The notes beneath the pieces are model-generated. The model was not told the DNA's origin, searched no databases, and saw only the letters and a list, made by a program, of their open reading frames with translations. Of a DNA stretch of 62,290 nucleotides, positions 35,696 through 60,148 are shown one piece after another (positions within the stretch are counted from its first letter, which is position 1; every line of letters begins with the position of its first letter). The DNA lies in assembly GCA_019243445.1 (NCBI GenBank), contig JAFAUH010000105.1, positions 1-62,290 of the forward strand, read 5' to 3'. The DNA comes from Streptomycetaceae bacterium. Its GTDB lineage: Bacteria > Actinomycetota > Actinomycetes > Streptomycetales > Streptomycetaceae. A program made the position numbers and the translations under genes.

Positions 35696-36439
35696 ATGAC
35701 TGCCTCAGAGATGCCGTCCCGCGTAGAATGCGTAAGAGTCATGCTCGTCGACGACCAGGCGCTGCTGCGCACCGGCTTCCGGATGGTGCTTCAGGCGCAG
35801 CCCGACATGGAGGTCGTGGCCGAGGCAGGCGATGGTGCGGAGGCACTCGACGCCCTCCGTACGACAGCGGTGGATGTAGTGCTGATGGACGTGCGTATGC
35901 CGAAGCTCGACGGCGTCGAGGCGACCCGCCGGATCTGCGCTGGGACATCAGCCTCCCCGGGCGCGGCAGATCCCGGCCACACATCGGGCGGCGACGGGCC
36001 ACGGGTGCTGATCTTGACCACCTTCGACCTCGACGAGTACGCCTTTGCCGCGCTCAAGGCGGGCGCGAGCGGCTTCATGCTCAAGGATGTCCCGCCGGAA
36101 GAGCTGCTTGCCGCGATCCGTGCTGTCCACAGCGGCGACGCCGTGGTCGCGCCGAGCACGACCCGCCGCCTGCTCGACCGTTTCGCACCGATGCTGCCGA
36201 GCGCAGCCGAGCCCGAAAGCGCCGGACTGCGACGGCTGACCGAACGCGAACGCGAGGTGCTGCTGCTGGTGGCCCAGGGGCTGTCGAACGGGGAGATCGC
36301 CGTGCAGCTCGTGCTCTCGGAGGCGACCGTCAAGACGCACGTCGGCCGCATCCTCACCAAGCTGGAGTTGCGCGATCGCGTCCAGGCCGTGGTGTTCGCC
36401 TACGAGACGGGCCTGGTACGGCCCGGGGGTTTCACTTAA
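35696..36439 (+). CDS. NarL/LuxR-family response regulator
   Basis: This is a 247-residue regulator. The receiver domain has VMLVDDQ and phospho-acceptor Asp in VVLMDVRMPKLDG, and the LuxR-type HTH is LTEREREVLLLVAQGLSNGEI to VKTHVGRILTKL. A Gly/Ser/Pro-rich insert of about 20 residues (after RRICAG) interrupts the receiver domain. It is most likely the partner of the NarL-type kinase upstream, but it has its own leaderless-type promoter. Confidence 0.9.
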   Translation: MTASEMPSRVECVRVMLVDDQALLRTGFRMVLQAQPDMEVVAEAGDGAEALDALRTTAVDVVLMDVRMPKLDGVEATRRICAGTSASPGAADPGHTSGGDGPRVLILTTFDLDEYAFAALKAGASGFMLKDVPPEELLAAIRAVHSGDAVVAPSTTRRLLDRFAPMLPSAAEPESAGLRRLTEREREVLLLVAQGLSNGEIAVQLVLSEATVKTHVGRILTKLELRDRVQAVVFAYETGLVRPGGFT

Positions 36440-51696: not shown

Positions 51697-52274
51697 GCGC
51701 TCTCCTTGACGGACGCAGCCTTGCAAGGGCGAGGGAGAGGGCGAGGGCGCTGAGCCGGAATGGAGACCTTCGGCTGCTCGAGCTCCTCGCGCAGCCGGGC
51801 CAGCGCGCGGTGCAGTGTGCTTTTGACAGTTCCTGTGGACATGCCGAGCGCGCGAGCGGTCTCCTCGGTGCTCATCTGCTTCCAGTGCCGCAGCATCACG
51901 ACCTGGCGCTGTTTCGGCGCCAGCACGGCGAGCGCACCGAAGAGCATGGCACGGTCAGCGCGCTGCTCGGCGCCGTCGTCGATGCTGGAGTCGGGGAGGG
52001 TCTCAGTGGGGATCTCTTCCAGCTTGCGGGCGCGCCACCATTCGGTACGCGTATTGATCATGACGCGGCGCATATAGGCGTCGGCGAGCCCCTTGTCCGC
52101 TATCCGCTCCCAGCGAGGGAAAGTACGGCACAGAGCAGTCTGGAGCAGGTCCTGGGCCTCGTTCGGGTCCGGCACGAGACGCCGGGCGCTGCGCAGCAGG
52201 GAGTCCTGACGGGATCGCACATACTCCTCGAAATCCAGCGTTTGCCTGTTATCGATCGCCGTGCTTGCCGCCAT
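51684..52274 (-). CDS. sigE: ECF sigma factor SigE
   Basis: SigE is the cell-envelope stress sigma factor of the CseABC system. This 196-residue protein has region 2 (ARRLVPDPNEAQDLLQTAL; YMRRVMINTRTEWWRARKLEEIPTE) and region 4 (LAPKQRQVVMLRHWKQMSTEET; MSTGTVKSTLHRALARLREEL). The match to S. coelicolor SigE is close, including the CAA end. ATG 52274 has GGAGG upstream; ATG 52307 does not. It is first in the sigE-cseA-cseB-cseC operon. Confidence 0.94.
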   Translation of the reverse strand: MAASTAIDNRQTLDFEEYVRSRQDSLLRSARRLVPDPNEAQDLLQTALCRTFPRWERIADKGLADAYMRRVMINTRTEWWRARKLEEIPTETLPDSSIDDGAEQRADRAMLFGALAVLAPKQRQVVMLRHWKQMSTEETARALGMSTGTVKSTLHRALARLREELEQPKVSIPAQRPRPLPRPCKAASVKESACAA

Positions 52275-54382: not shown

Positions 54383-55537
54383 TCACACGTAGCGTTCGAG
54401 GATCGAGGACTCGGCGAGTCGGGAGAGCCCCTCGCGGATCGAGCGGGCCCGCGCCTCGCCGACGCCGTCGACCCTCTGCAGATCGTCGACGCTCGCGGCG
54501 AGCAGCTTCTGCAGGCTTCCGAAGTGATCGACAAGCCGCTCGATGACGGCGTTCGGCAGCCGTGGGACCTTGGCGAGCAGCCGGAATCCGCGAGGGCTGA
54601 TAGCGGCGTCAAGCGATTCGGGGGAGCCGGTGTAACCCAACGCACGAGCCACTGTGGTCAGTTCGATCAGCTCGCTCTGCGGTAGGGAGTCGAGCTCCGT
54701 GAGCGCCTCGGCGACCGTACGCGGGCGCCTCCCGGTCAGCTCGGGAACGTAGTCACGGGCGACGAGTTCGCGTTCCGGGTCGACACCGGAGATCAACTCG
54801 TCGAGCTGCAGCGCGAGGAGACGGCCGTCGGTGCCCAACTCGACGACATATTCGGCGATCTCTGTGGCGATGCGACGCACCATCTCCAGGCGCTGTGCCA
54901 CTGCCGTGACATCTCTGACGGTGACCAAGTCCTCGATCTCCAGCGCGGAGAGCGTGCCGGCGACTTCGTCGAGTCGCAGTTTGTATCGTTCAAGTGTGGC
55001 GAGTGCCTGGTTGGCGCGCGAGAGGATTGTCGCCGAGTCCTCCAGCACCCGGCGCTGCCCGTCGACATAGAGGGCGATCACGCGCATCGACTGACTGACG
55101 GAGATGACAGGGAAACCGACCTGCTTACTGACCCGGTCCGCAGTGCGGTGGCGGGTGCCGGTCTCCTCGGTGGGGATGGTGGAGTCGGGGACGAGCTGTA
55201 CGCCAGCGCGCAGGATCTTGGTGATGTCCTTGTCAATGATGAGTGCGCCGTCGAGCTTGCACAGCTCGCGCAGCCGCGTCGCGGTGAATTCGACATCGAG
55301 AACAAACCCGCCGGTGCAGAGTGATTCAACTGTTTTATCCATGCCGAGCACGATCAGCCCGCCAGTGTTGCCGCGAACGATGCGCTCCAAGCCGTCACGG
55401 AGCGCGGTGCCGGGCGCAGCCGCGCTGAGCGCGGCCCGCATCATGCTCATGCCGTCGGCGCCGACACCGAACACCCCGCCGGGCCCACTGGACCTTCCGG
55501 GTCTTCCGGATGTGAGTACCCGGTCGTTGGCTGCCAC
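54383..55537 (-). CDS. disA: DNA integrity scanning diadenylate cyclase DisA
   Basis: DisA makes the messenger c-di-AMP and scans DNA for lesions. It has 384 residues. The DAC domain shows the KLDGALIID (DGA) and GTRHRTADR (RHR) motifs at about 94-140; a linker and a C-terminal helix-hairpin-helix ([15 protein letters not shown]) follow. The GTG start has GGAGGAG upstream. It is downstream of radA on the same strand; their products interact in Bacillus. Confidence 0.97.
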
Positions 55538-55749
55538 TGCGCTCCTCCGGTCACATATCGGCTGTTCCAGGCCTGCCGTGACCGGAACGTCCTCTGTCCG
55601 CTCTCCGACACAGGTGGCCGCCCATACGACCCTCGTCCCCGCCGGCCCGGACGGGCGGGATCGGGCAAGTCTACCGACGCCCGCCGATTTCAGTCGGCTG
55701 ATGCCGCACTCCGCAGCTCCCCCGCAGCTACTCTGCAGTTATCCCTCCG

Positions 55750-57168
55750 CTATCCCTCCGCCCGCCGGGCCTCGTACGAGCCTGCCCCACCGGAGCCTTT
55801 CCGCGGAAGCACGCGCAATGCCTCTCCGACGTCTGTGACCTCTGTCACTGTCATCTCCCGCGGCACTTTGCCGGGATCGGGCGGTACCAGCGCGTGAGTG
55901 AACCCGAGACGCGCGGCCTCAGCAAGGCGGCGCTGTACGCCGGTGACTGTGCGCACCTCACCCGCCAAGCCCACCTCGCCGATCGCCACCAGGTTCTTCG
56001 GCAATGGCATGTCACTCGCCGCACTCGCCAACGCCAGCGCCACCGCCAGGTCGGCGGACGGCTCCGAGAGCTTCACTCCGCCCACCGTCGCGCTGTAGAT
56101 GTCGCACTTGCCGATCTGGTGAATACGGCCGCGCTGTTCGAGGACGGCGAGCATCATCGACACCCGGGAGGTCTCAAGGCCCGAAGTGGTGCGGCGTGGC
56201 GAGGGGATCTGAGAGGCGACGGTGAGCGCCTGCACCTCGGCGACGAGCGGGCGGCGGCCCTCCAAAGTGACGGTCAGGCACGTGCCGGGCACCGGCTCGT
56301 CCCGCCGGGTGAGAAACAGCCCGCTGGGATCGGCGAGCCCAGTGATCCCCTCGTCGTGCAGTTCGAAGCAACCGACCTCATCGGTGGCTCCATAGCGGTT
56401 CTTGACACCCCGGATCAGCCGCAACCGCGCATGACGATCGCCCTCGAAGTGCAGGACGACGTCAACGAGATGCTCCAGCAGCCGCGGACCGGCGATCGCA
56501 CCGTCCTTCGTGACATGACCGACCAGGATCGTCGACATACCGCGATCCTTCGAGGCGCGGATCAGCGCCCCCGCCACCTCGCGCACCTGCGCCATGCCAC
56601 CCGGCGCGCCGTCGATCTCCGGCGAGGCCACCGTCTGCACCGAATCCAGCACGAGCAACGCGGGCTTGACGTCGTCAAGATGGCCGAGGATCGCAGCGAG
56701 ATCCGTCTCGGCCGCCAGGTACAGGTAGTCGCTGAGCGCACCGATACGGTCGGCGCGCAGCCGCACCTGCCCGGCCGACTCCTCGCCCGTCACGTACAGC
56801 GTGCGCGCCCGCTCACTCGACGCCTTCGCCGCGACGTCAAGCAGCAGCGTCGACTTGCCCACCCCGGGCTCGCCCGCGAGCAGCACCACGGCCCCCGGCA
56901 CCAGACCGCCGCCGAGCACCCGGTCGAGCTCGGCGACGCCCGTGGAGCGCGCTGTCGCCGTACGGCCGTCGACCTGCGCGATCGGACGTGCGGGCGCGGT
57001 GACCCGGCCGGGCGCGGTGGTGCGAACGGCTGGCGCGCCGTACTCCTCGACCGTGCCCCACGCCTGGCACTCACCGCACCGGCCGAGCCATTTGGCCGTC
57101 GTCCAGCCGCACTCGGTGCAGCGATAGGCCGGACGGTCCTTGGGAGTCGTACGCATACGGGCAGCCAT
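55750..57168 (-). CDS. radA: DNA repair protein RadA
   Basis: RadA is a RecA-like helicase for branch migration. It has 472 residues with an N-terminal C4 zinc finger (CTECGWTTAKWLGRCGEC), Walker A GEPGVGKSTLL, the RadA-specific KNRYGATDE and a C-terminal Lon-protease-like domain (GEVGLAGEVR). The ATG at 57168 is preceded at seven bases by TAGGGT, so the mRNA is probably leaderless. disA lies 212 bp downstream. Confidence 0.96.
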   Translation of the reverse strand: MAARMRTTPKDRPAYRCTECGWTTAKWLGRCGECQAWGTVEEYGAPAVRTTAPGRVTAPARPIAQVDGRTATARSTGVAELDRVLGGGLVPGAVVLLAGEPGVGKSTLLLDVAAKASSERARTLYVTGEESAGQVRLRADRIGALSDYLYLAAETDLAAILGHLDDVKPALLVLDSVQTVASPEIDGAPGGMAQVREVAGALIRASKDRGMSTILVGHVTKDGAIAGPRLLEHLVDVVLHFEGDRHARLRLIRGVKNRYGATDEVGCFELHDEGITGLADPSGLFLTRRDEPVPGTCLTVTLEGRRPLVAEVQALTVASQIPSPRRTTSGLETSRVSMMLAVLEQRGRIHQIGKCDIYSATVGGVKLSEPSADLAVALALASAASDMPLPKNLVAIGEVGLAGEVRTVTGVQRRLAEAARLGFTHALVPPDPGKVPREMTVTEVTDVGEALRVLPRKGSGGAGSYEARRAEG

Positions 57169-57175
57169 GAGTCTC

Positions 57176-57181
57176 ACCCTA
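57176..57181 (-). promoter_or_regulatory. -10 box TAGGGT, leaderless start of radA
   Basis: On the minus strand TAGGGT is seven bases before the radA ATG. Confidence 0.5.
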
Positions 57182-57502
57182 GGTCCTGGGTATGACAACG
57201 CACCGGTGTGCCCGCGGCAGTGCTCCGGCGGAGCCTTCCCCGCAGGCAGAAACAGGAAGAGGGAGGCAGGAGGGAGCTCCCCCCGTGATGCTTCCAGTGC
57301 CCCTGGCGCGAAAGAGCGAACGGAGACGTCCGCGCCGTGGCGTACGCGGGGCGGTGAGGTGGCGCACCATGGCGAGAAGGGGGTGAATTGCACGGACGGA
57401 TGAGCCTGGTGTCCTCTTTTGAGGGGGAAGTGCACCCGAAAGAGTTAAACGTTAGGCCGAGAGATGGGAGGGCGCGCACAGCCGCCCTACGGTCACCCAG
57501 TG

Positions 57503-59311
57503 ATGAGCAGGTCTGAGCACACCCCGTGGCGTTCCCCCTCGCCCCCGGCACACCGCCGCCCGGCACCCACCGGTGCGCACCGGGCGGTCTCGCGCGCGCC
57601 CCGCCGCGGACCTCGCCCGGGCAGCGGGCCCCGTACCGGACCGGCCGCAGGGCAGGACGCGGCGTCGGCCCTTGCCTCAGACGCCGCCCCAGGAGCCGAT
57701 CTGACAGCGGGCAGTGTTCCGCAGCAGCTGTCCCCGCTCTACGAGCCCTACCTGGACGGACTGTTCACCTACTGCCTGTCCGTACTATGCGAGCACGCCA
57801 CCGCGACCGCCGCCCTCGGCGATATGCTCGCCGTTGCCGAACGCCACCGCGGCCGACTGCGCCACCCCGAGCTGCGCCGCGCCTGGTTCTACGCACTCGC
57901 CCGCTGGGCCTGCCTGCGCCGCCTCGCCCAAGGCCGCCCGGCCTCCGGATCACCCGAGACCCCGCAGTCCGTTGCCGACGAACGCCGCCGCGAACTCGCC
58001 GCCCTTGCCTGGCCCGAGGCAGCGGGCACCACCCCCGAGCAGCGCGAAGCCCTCGAACTCTCCGTCCGCCATCAGCTGTCCGCCCGCGAGATCGCCGCCG
58101 TACTCGGCGTCGCCCGCGACACCGCCCGCTCCCTGCTCTCCCGCGCCGCCTGCAAGGTCGAACGGACCCGAACCGCGCTCGCCGTTGTCGAACTCGGCAG
58201 CTGCCCAGCCGTAGCCCGGCTCTCCGGCGACGCCCAGGTACTGCTCGGCACCACTCTGCGCCGTGAACTCGTCCGCCACGTCGACGAATGCCCCGCCTGC
58301 CGCCTCACCGCAGAACAAGCCGTCGCCGCCGGTCCCTGGCCTGGCACCGCCACTCCCGCCGTACTCGCCCTCGTCGAGGCGCCGCGCTCTGCCGTGGGCG
58401 CCGCAATGGTGCACGCCATGCGCGCGATCCGCTCCGCCGGACGCAGCGATGGCCGCCTACCCCACTTCGACCGGCGCGGCTTCCCCCTGGACGTGAAGGA
58501 ACGTGCCGCCCGCCGCACCCTGATGCGCCACCGTGCGCTCACCACCACCGTCGTTGCGGCCGTCGTCGCTGCCCCCACACTCGCTTTGTGGGCCGCGTAC
58601 CGCAATGCGCCGCAGACCGGCGAGGCCCAGGACACCACCTCGGTCTCGGTGACCGACACCGACGGCGCCAACCCCACCGACTACGGCTATACCTACCAGA
58701 AGAGCGGCAACGCCAAAGTCATCAGCCACCCCCATGCCACCGCTCCCCGTCTCCCCAGCGGCACCCCGCCCCCCAAAGCGGCCGCCCCGGCAGACGACTC
58801 GGCCCGGCCCCCGCGCTCGCCCGACTCCCCACACCCCGCGGCCAGCTCCGCACCGTCCTCGCCGCGCCCCGGGTGGATCACCGTCGCCGCCCAGCCGCAA
58901 GGCTCCGACACCCAGATCACGGTGACCGACGAGGGCGGTTCGCCAGTGCACTGGACGGCCTCAACCGACGCGTCCTGGCTGCACCTGAGCACCACCTCGG
59001 GCACCCTCCAGCCAGGTCGCAGCGTCACCATCACGGCCACCGTCGACCAGGCGGCTCAGCCCGCAGGGCGCTGGCGCGCCAAAATCACCTTCGAACCGTC
59101 CCATTCCACAGTCATCATCGAGGGACAGGGCGCCGACCCCTCCCCGTCGGGCAGCCCGACGCCCTCGCCGACGCCGGCCTCCGGCCACACATCGAAGCCG
59201 GAGCCGGAACGGGGGTCGGCCTCCGGCCACCCGCCGAAGCCGGAGGGCAGCTCGGAGCGCGAGAGCCAGCGAGGCGAGAGCCAGCGGCCGCAAAAGCCGC
59301 AAAAGCCGTAA
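57503..59311 (+). CDS. Sigma-70-like / zinc-finger / transmembrane / BACON fusion protein
   Basis: This 602-residue single chain has a sigma region-2-like part (LYEPYLDGLFTYCLSVL, about 78-115) and sigma region 4 (HQLSAREIAAVLGVARDTARSLLS, about 193-235). A zinc-finger anti-sigma motif (RHVDECPACR, about 257-266) follows, then one membrane helix (about 345-366) and an outside BACON-like domain (about 457-540, ASWLHLSTTSGTL) with a Pro/Ser tail. It resembles ECF groups with C-terminal membrane extensions. The start is uncertain: GTG 57500, ATG 57503 or ATG 57464. Confidence 0.8.
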   Translation: MSRSEHTPWRSPSPPAHRRPAPTGAHRAVSRAPRRGPRPGSGPRTGPAAGQDAASALASDAAPGADLTAGSVPQQLSPLYEPYLDGLFTYCLSVLCEHATATAALGDMLAVAERHRGRLRHPELRRAWFYALARWACLRRLAQGRPASGSPETPQSVADERRRELAALAWPEAAGTTPEQREALELSVRHQLSAREIAAVLGVARDTARSLLSRAACKVERTRTALAVVELGSCPAVARLSGDAQVLLGTTLRRELVRHVDECPACRLTAEQAVAAGPWPGTATPAVLALVEAPRSAVGAAMVHAMRAIRSAGRSDGRLPHFDRRGFPLDVKERAARRTLMRHRALTTTVVAAVVAAPTLALWAAYRNAPQTGEAQDTTSVSVTDTDGANPTDYGYTYQKSGNAKVISHPHATAPRLPSGTPPPKAAAPADDSARPPRSPDSPHPAASSAPSSPRPGWITVAAQPQGSDTQITVTDEGGSPVHWTASTDASWLHLSTTSGTLQPGRSVTITATVDQAAQPAGRWRAKITFEPSHSTVIIEGQGADPSPSGSPTPSPTPASGHTSKPEPERGSASGHPPKPEGSSERESQRGESQRPQKPQKP

Positions 59312-59344: not shown

Positions 59345-60148
59345 TCAGACCTGGGGATCGGCAGGGTGCGGTGCGAGGAGCGGGAGCGAGGAGGCGAGTC
59401 GGGCCTCGCACAGCTCGACCAGCCGCTCGTACGCGGGCGCGCCCATCAGCTCGATCAGCTCAGGCCGGTAGGAGACATAGACGGGCTCGCCCGCGCCATG
59501 GGCCGACTTCGCGCCCGTACACCACCAGTGCAGATCGTGCCCACCGGGACCCCAGCCACGCCGGTCGTACTCGCCGATCGACACGACCAGCACCTGGGTG
59601 TCGTCAGGCCGGTCGACCCAGTCGTACGTACGGCGGATCGGCAGCTGCCAGCACACGTCCGGCTTCGTCTCCAGCGGCTCGCGCTCCTCCCGCAGCGCCA
59701 GGGTGTGCAGCGCACAGCCCTCACCGCCGGCGAATCCCGGACGATTGAGGAAGATGCACGCACCATCGACCAGCCGCGTCTGCCGCTCGCCGTCCTCGCT
59801 GACCTCCACCCACCCCTCGGGTGAGCGGCCTGCCTCGTGCAACTGCCATACTTCGGGCGTCAATCGGGCCACGTGCTCGGCGACTCGCGCCTCGTCGTCC
59901 TCATCCGAGAAGTGCGCGCCGAGCGTGCAGCAGCCGTCGCTCGCACGCCCCGCGGTGATACCTTGGCAGCCGCGGCCGAAGATGCACGCCCAGCGCGAGG
60001 TGAGCCAGGTCAGATCGCAGCGGAAGACCTGCTCGTCGTCGGCCGGATCCGGGAATTCGACCCAGGCACGTGGGAAGTCCAACCCGGCCTCGTCAGCCTC
60101 GACTGGCTTCTGCTTTTCCTTGGATTTCGCCTTTGCCGCTTTTGCCAC
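59345..60148 (-). CDS. Cysteine-rich conserved hypothetical (DUF3109/YkgJ-like)
   Basis: This 267-residue cytoplasmic protein has a Lys-rich N-terminus and a cysteine array: [45 protein letters not shown] and KPDVCWQLP. The pattern looks like a metal or Fe-S cluster domain of the YkgJ/DUF3109 sort. Its function is unknown. It starts at GTG 60148. It converges with the fusion gene and is divergent from the Ppx-like gene. Confidence 0.7.

Follow-up and report, generated by a model that had tools for sequence, protein, structure and literature searches.

The window analysed here, a stretch of 62,290 nucleotides from a Streptomycetaceae bacterium, carries on its forward strand a gene for a protein of 602 amino acids (57503..59311), divergent from radA (55750-57195) and disA (54383-55537), which together occupy 54383..57195 on the reverse strand. 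The open reading frame containing the gene spans 57464-59311; it is real, and the coordinates given in the first-pass annotation are correct. The true start is the ATG at 57503, as GTGATG is common to nearly all near relatives and is closely preceded by an in-frame TAA in L003-L005; a start upstream at 57464 is ruled out by these in-frame stops. HMM and profile matches, a zinc motif and a helix seen in both sequence and alignment confirmed the domain order that had been claimed for a single chain, namely ECF sigma region 2 (sigma2), sigma region 4 (sigma4), a ZAS-type zinc anti-sigma module, a single membrane helix and, on the outside, a BACON domain, all encoded on the forward strand. The genome of origin is a fragmented assembly of 414 contigs, with 96% completeness and 5% contamination, and among the 20 of its 33 sigma4 matches that were examined there was no further fused sigma-ZAS protein. 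Two more sigma4 matches lie in the window, at 36227-36364 on the forward strand and at 51792-51938 on the reverse strand, the latter without a ZAS or transmembrane segment. An uncharacterised gene with a Cys-rich start (59345-60148, reverse strand) shows 62-92% identity in the loci where it is found, its position relative to the sigma gene varying among them.

Both sigma regions proposed at first reading were recovered by HMM, by different routes. Region 4 (residues 161-232; 57983..58198) matched Pfam Sigma70_r4_2 above its cut-off (E-value 1.5e-7). Region 2 (residues 80-145; 57740..57937) gave no match to Pfam Sigma70_r2, and its similarity emerged instead from the NCBIfam ECF models, which cover residues 88-237 in the 615-residue numbering that starts at 57464, and from a family profile that matches SigL; TIGR02937 scored 22.8 bits against a cut-off of 42.9. 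SigL of M. tuberculosis was the best solved relative of the single sequence, weakly (0.0047), and a profile of 38 members from the order's own group matched it at 2.1e-5 across sigma2 and sigma4, in an alignment ungapped over most of sigma2. Sigma70_r2 recognises one of these 38 members (0.0064) as against 18 of 19 relatives from outside the order (best 3.8e-15), all 19 of which match TIGR02937; these relatives are plainly ECFs and share the fusion. Together with the SigL match, this contrast indicates, at the level of sequence, that sigma2 is a genuine domain that has drifted in the window's lineage, and it rules out chance similarity. The protein has the sigma2 and sigma4 homology, with no sigma3, of an ECF sigma factor (sigma-70 group 4), both by the profile match to SigL and by the match of its AlphaFold2 fold to ECF structures, whereas the core-binding Asp..Gln of region 2.2 is absent from the Streptomycetales members.

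The ZAS-type module (residues 233-275; 58199..58327) has the putative zinc ligands C234, H259, C263 and C266, spaced C-x24-H-x3-C-x2-C. The HxxxCxxC anti-sigma motif noticed earlier is borne out as HVDECPAC, accompanied by an upstream Cys; the spacing is C-x24/25-H-x3-C-x2-C in the near set and, among the members, a Cys followed after about 21-26 residues by H-x3-C-x2-C (occasionally H-x4-C), in keeping with the [H/C]-x~25-H-x3-C-x2-C pattern of ZAS domains. Across 57 aligned sequences, 38 from members and 19 from outer relatives, none of the four ligand columns varies. A zf-HC2 match, which the annotation had suggested looking for, was present but sub-threshold (0.15). Searched against solved relatives, a profile of the ZAS alone found RslA best (0.0019) and, weakly, RsiW (0.59) and DdvA (0.8), all of them anti-sigma factors. 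RslA is SigL's own inhibitor, and because the two form a natural pair the window protein can be read as a SigL-like and an RslA-like partner fused into one chain. Its seven Cys all precede the membrane helix: sigma2 and the ZAS have three each, and sigma4 has one. Near relatives have Cys at the same positions, L010 providing the one exception, and the four that are not ligands are not all retained in distant relatives.

A juxtamembrane motif, FDRRGFP (residues 322-328; 58466..58486), in which the G and P are invariant in the 38-member alignment, is present in nearly all members, diverged paralogues included. The single transmembrane helix, evident from sequence and alignment (residues ~346-366; 58538..58600), is flanked by R/K on its N side, and the charge distribution places the sigma and ZAS parts inside and BACON outside, so that the topology proposed at first reading is supported and the two domains are predicted to lie on opposite sides of the membrane. 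The helix is followed by an extracellular stalk rich in Pro, Ser and Thr (58601..58876), fast-evolving (dN/dS 0.17-0.82) and modelled with low confidence, and by a BACON-like Ig-fold domain (residues 459-542; 58877..59128). The latter, likewise an expectation of the earlier reading, matched Pfam BACON_2 at 1.9e-9 (37.7 bits, cut-off 25), was modelled with a pLDDT of mostly 79-95, and resembles in fold a domain of the GH115 enzyme 4zmh; only BACON models matched the outside part in Pfam, with no smart00776 carbohydrate-binding module. Of the 38 members in the order's group 35 have BACON, as against 2/19 outer relatives; the domain may act as a sensor.

Structure prediction added a view of the cytoplasmic half. 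A full-length AlphaFold2 run with 16 close sequences modelled BACON well and sigma2 poorly, and a run on sigma2-sigma4-ZAS with 22 more diverse sequences reached a pLDDT of 87.5 and a pTM of 0.78, with the ZAS modelled at high confidence. The match of lowest E-value to this second model was SigL in a polymerase complex (6dv9). Several of the closest matches in global fold are anti-sigma-bound, including CnrH/CnrY (TM 0.68, this and the following values by target length), PhyR/NepR (0.66) and SigW/RsiW (0.61), and polymerase-bound open ECFs fit the model poorly (TM about 0.3). According to the prediction and its fold matches, the sigma part looks closed.

The gene is a core gene of the Streptomycetales. 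A sigma-ZAS query matched 40 of 41 genomes of the family (17/17 genera), and a sigma-ZAS profile matched all 60 sampled genomes of the order and 20 of 104 genera across the class. Its position beside radA/disA, remarked on from the start, is conserved as well: the gene or a tandem pair is divergent from radA in 35/35 Streptomycetales loci with enough flank, and disA is beside radA in 32 of these, two of the remaining three being cut by a contig end; in L006, no disA lies within reach of radA. Tandem pairs of family members adjoin radA in deep-branching genera (L069, L070, L072-L075), the radA-proximal copy having the more diverged sigma2. Among 20 stretches examined from genomes that do not belong to the order, L103 alone has the radA-disA neighbourhood.

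Residue-level comparison showed what the drift of the sigma half had removed. In sigma factors generally, the Asp and Gln of region 2.2 contact core RNA polymerase. The Asp is present in 0/60 Streptomycetales members as against 11/11 comparator ECFs, a small set chosen by hand, and the Gln in 0/60 against 8/11. Across the family, the Asn of region 2.4 is found in 0/61 members (7/11 comparators) and the Arg of the 4.2 recognition helix in 1/59 (8/11 comparators), and the Asp of region 2.4 is likewise missing in the Streptomycetales clade. Since Asn and Arg are patchy among the outer relatives too, the region 2.2 Asp is the most telling position; it is retained in 13 of 21 relatives outside the order, including L103 in its radA-disA locus, which has the Asn too. 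On a tree built after removal of four of the scored residue columns, the state of this Asp requires two changes: the basal grade retains the residue, and within a clade of 36 rows (support 97/98) nearly all have lost it. A single loss is suggested tentatively, some backbone forks being unsettled and the comparators few and hand-chosen.

Despite this loss, sigma2 evolves under constraint. Over seven pairs its dN/dS is 0.03-0.32, lower than that of the stalk in 7/7, which implies that the domain is maintained rather than freely decaying; strong purifying selection acts on sigma2, sigma4, ZAS and the transmembrane helix, sigma2 being about as constrained as sigma4. The suspicion that region 2 looks weak was well founded, and the weakness is a lineage-wide degeneration that selection maintains.

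The upstream region is conserved in its own right. A box of the form CACCCG-N3-AG(G/A)GTTAAAC lies about 60 nt 5′ of the start codon (57433..57450, forward strand); in a CACCCG-N3-AGGGTTAAA-like form it is common to all 16 upstream regions aligned, and it is unique in the window's genome at up to two mismatches. A putative -10 hexamer, TACGGT (TANNNT), follows at 57488..57493, 6 nt before GTGATG, within a CCTA..GTC context conserved in the 16 regions; the spacing between box and hexamer is nearly constant in these loci. With the TANNNT-like element placed just 5′ of the start, a leaderless mRNA is suggested, and the two elements possibly represent an activator site plus a leaderless promoter. 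No -35 of ECF type was conserved at ECF spacing in the 16 regions, and with the box unique in the genome, autoregulation by a standard ECF promoter is unsupported.

Taken as a whole, the evidence supports well a self-inhibited, membrane-tethered sigma/anti-sigma switch, and the one-protein signalling system of the first-pass annotation was right in outline. In its full form, to which we lean at slightly better than even, the proposal is a one-protein membrane switch whose sigma2 surface for core polymerase has been remodelled in the Streptomycetales. The N-terminal, cytoplasmic half would be an ECF-type sigma2-sigma4 covalently joined to its own ZAS inhibitor, which at rest would keep the sigma module closed at the membrane, while the stalk and BACON would attach to, or sense, some component of the wall or of the surroundings. 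Altered conditions there, or zinc loss or oxidation of the ZAS thiols, could be the trigger; the sigma module would then be let go by intramembrane proteolysis or a conformational change and act on transcription, with the remodelled surface of the Streptomycetales proteins contacting polymerase or promoter unlike a standard ECF. Sequence and model support the set of domains, the zinc ligands, the place of the membrane helix and a sigma fold near anti-sigma-bound ECFs, and the signal, the release step (possibly proteolysis of the sigma part), the target genes and any engagement of polymerase are our inference. In favour of the switch stand the SigL likeness of the sigma half and the RslA likeness of the ZAS half, the invariant zinc ligands, the confident model with its closed matches and poor fit to open ECFs, outer relatives that carry this fusion and are evident ECFs, the purifying selection on every module from sigma2 to the membrane helix, and SCO4117/ECF52 as an earlier example of a fused protein of this sort with a role in transcription (PMC5826349). 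Against it stand the missing Asp/Gln of region 2.2, Asn/Asp of region 2.4 and, nearly always, Arg of 4.2, a -10-like element conserved without an ECF-spaced -35, and the lack of known target genes.

The loss of core-binding residues makes a serious alternative of a pseudo-sigma, possible if not the expected outcome, in which the Streptomycetales sigma half no longer forms holoenzyme and is kept for binding an anti-sigma factor, either its own ZAS or a different one. The protein would serve as a membrane-bound anti-anti-sigma factor, comparable to the sigma-like domain of PhyR, or as a scaffold. The complete absence of Asp and Gln from the 60 members accords with this reading, as do the retention of Asp in outer relatives with few changes on the tree, the purifying selection still acting on sigma2, and the appearance of sigma-like domains of PhyR in both the sequence and the fold matches; it is opposed by a sigma4 still above its Pfam cut-off and by the want of a named partner protein, and residue loss alone, scored against few, hand-chosen comparators, is no proof of lost core binding. 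On that reading, which we think possible to the same limited degree, the family would be a transmembrane pseudo-sigma that has lost polymerase engagement and that selection preserves for signalling, with BACON as its sensor on the outside, typically beside radA-disA.

Rather unlikely is an ordinary ECF52-type signalling sigma, from which proteolysis would free a fully active factor with its own promoters: the architecture is shared with SCO4117/ECF52, for which truncation supports release (PMC5826349, PMC8999054), and sigma-factor models give the outer relatives good scores, but the window protein falls about 20 bits short of the TIGR02937 cut-off and lacks the core-binding and -10 residues. 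We are equally doubtful that the protein responds to the redox or zinc state of the cytoplasm, with BACON no more than a wall anchor. ZAS proteins such as RsrA are thiol switches; exactly seven Cys, all inside, recur in near relatives but for the one exception in L010, yet distant relatives lack some of the four Cys that are not ligands, and BACON persists in 35 of the 38 members. A membrane-bound regulator in the style of ToxR/CadC, in which the sigma4 helix-turn-helix, the best-scoring cytoplasmic part, alone contacts DNA and sigma2 does not bind polymerase, is very improbable given that sigma2 is about as constrained as sigma4 and that the recognition-helix Arg is absent in 58/59.

The remodelled sigma/anti-sigma switch, as the reading we favour, concerns a core gene of an antibiotic-producing order, whose role should matter to the biology of these bacteria. 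The family lets the loss of a sigma core-binding motif be followed on a tree, with the relatives that retain Asp, L103 in its radA-disA locus included, as natural controls, and it opens to direct testing the question of what a sigma factor is for when it stops being one. The disA neighbourhood hints, as a lead only, that envelope sensing might be connected with c-di-AMP.

Several known systems share parts of this design. SigL and RslA of M. tuberculosis are the nearest solved relatives of the two cytoplasmic halves, but they are separate proteins and SigL retains its core-binding residues; to our knowledge, no BACON domain occurs in RslA. PhyR resembles the window protein in a sigma fold held closed and anti-sigma-bound, and differs in being a soluble response regulator that has neither a ZAS nor a membrane helix; a Pfam search found no receiver domain, the mark of PhyR-type anti-anti-sigma factors, in the window protein. 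By HMM and fold, the outside domain is the same Ig-like domain as the BACON of Bacteroidetes proteins and GH115 enzymes, and in the open-access literature no paper was found on BACON joined to an ECF sigma factor or on the window protein itself.

The closest parallels are the ECF groups with membrane extensions, to which the earlier reading had rightly pointed. In ECF48, ECF52 and ECF53 the sigma factor is joined to a membrane ZAS and is predicted to be set free by proteolysis (PMC8999054), and for SCO4117/ECF52 of S. coelicolor there is experimental support for release (PMC5826349, PMC8999054). ECF52, confined to Actinobacteria, consists of a sigma factor, a zinc-finger anti-sigma domain, a transmembrane helix, a proline-rich stalk and an outside binding domain (PMC5826349); the window protein likewise has an ECF sigma followed by ZAS, membrane helix and proline-rich region, and differs in carrying BACON in place of the smart00776 carbohydrate-binding module and in its gene neighbourhood. 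A similar fused sigma-ZAS-TM protein in L077/L078, with a canonical sigma2 (2.2e-14) that retains Asp and Gln and with an outside domain, may be ECF52-like. ECF48 and ECF53 share the predicted C-terminal ZAS fusion, one or two membrane helices and predicted proteolytic activation (PMC8999054), and the window protein, compared by description only, may already be filed in ECF53. As a kind, the fusion of an ECF sigma with a membrane ZAS has already been described in these groups, and the less expected feature is the loss of core-binding residues, through which the sigma part of the Streptomycetales proteins may no longer be a normal sigma factor.
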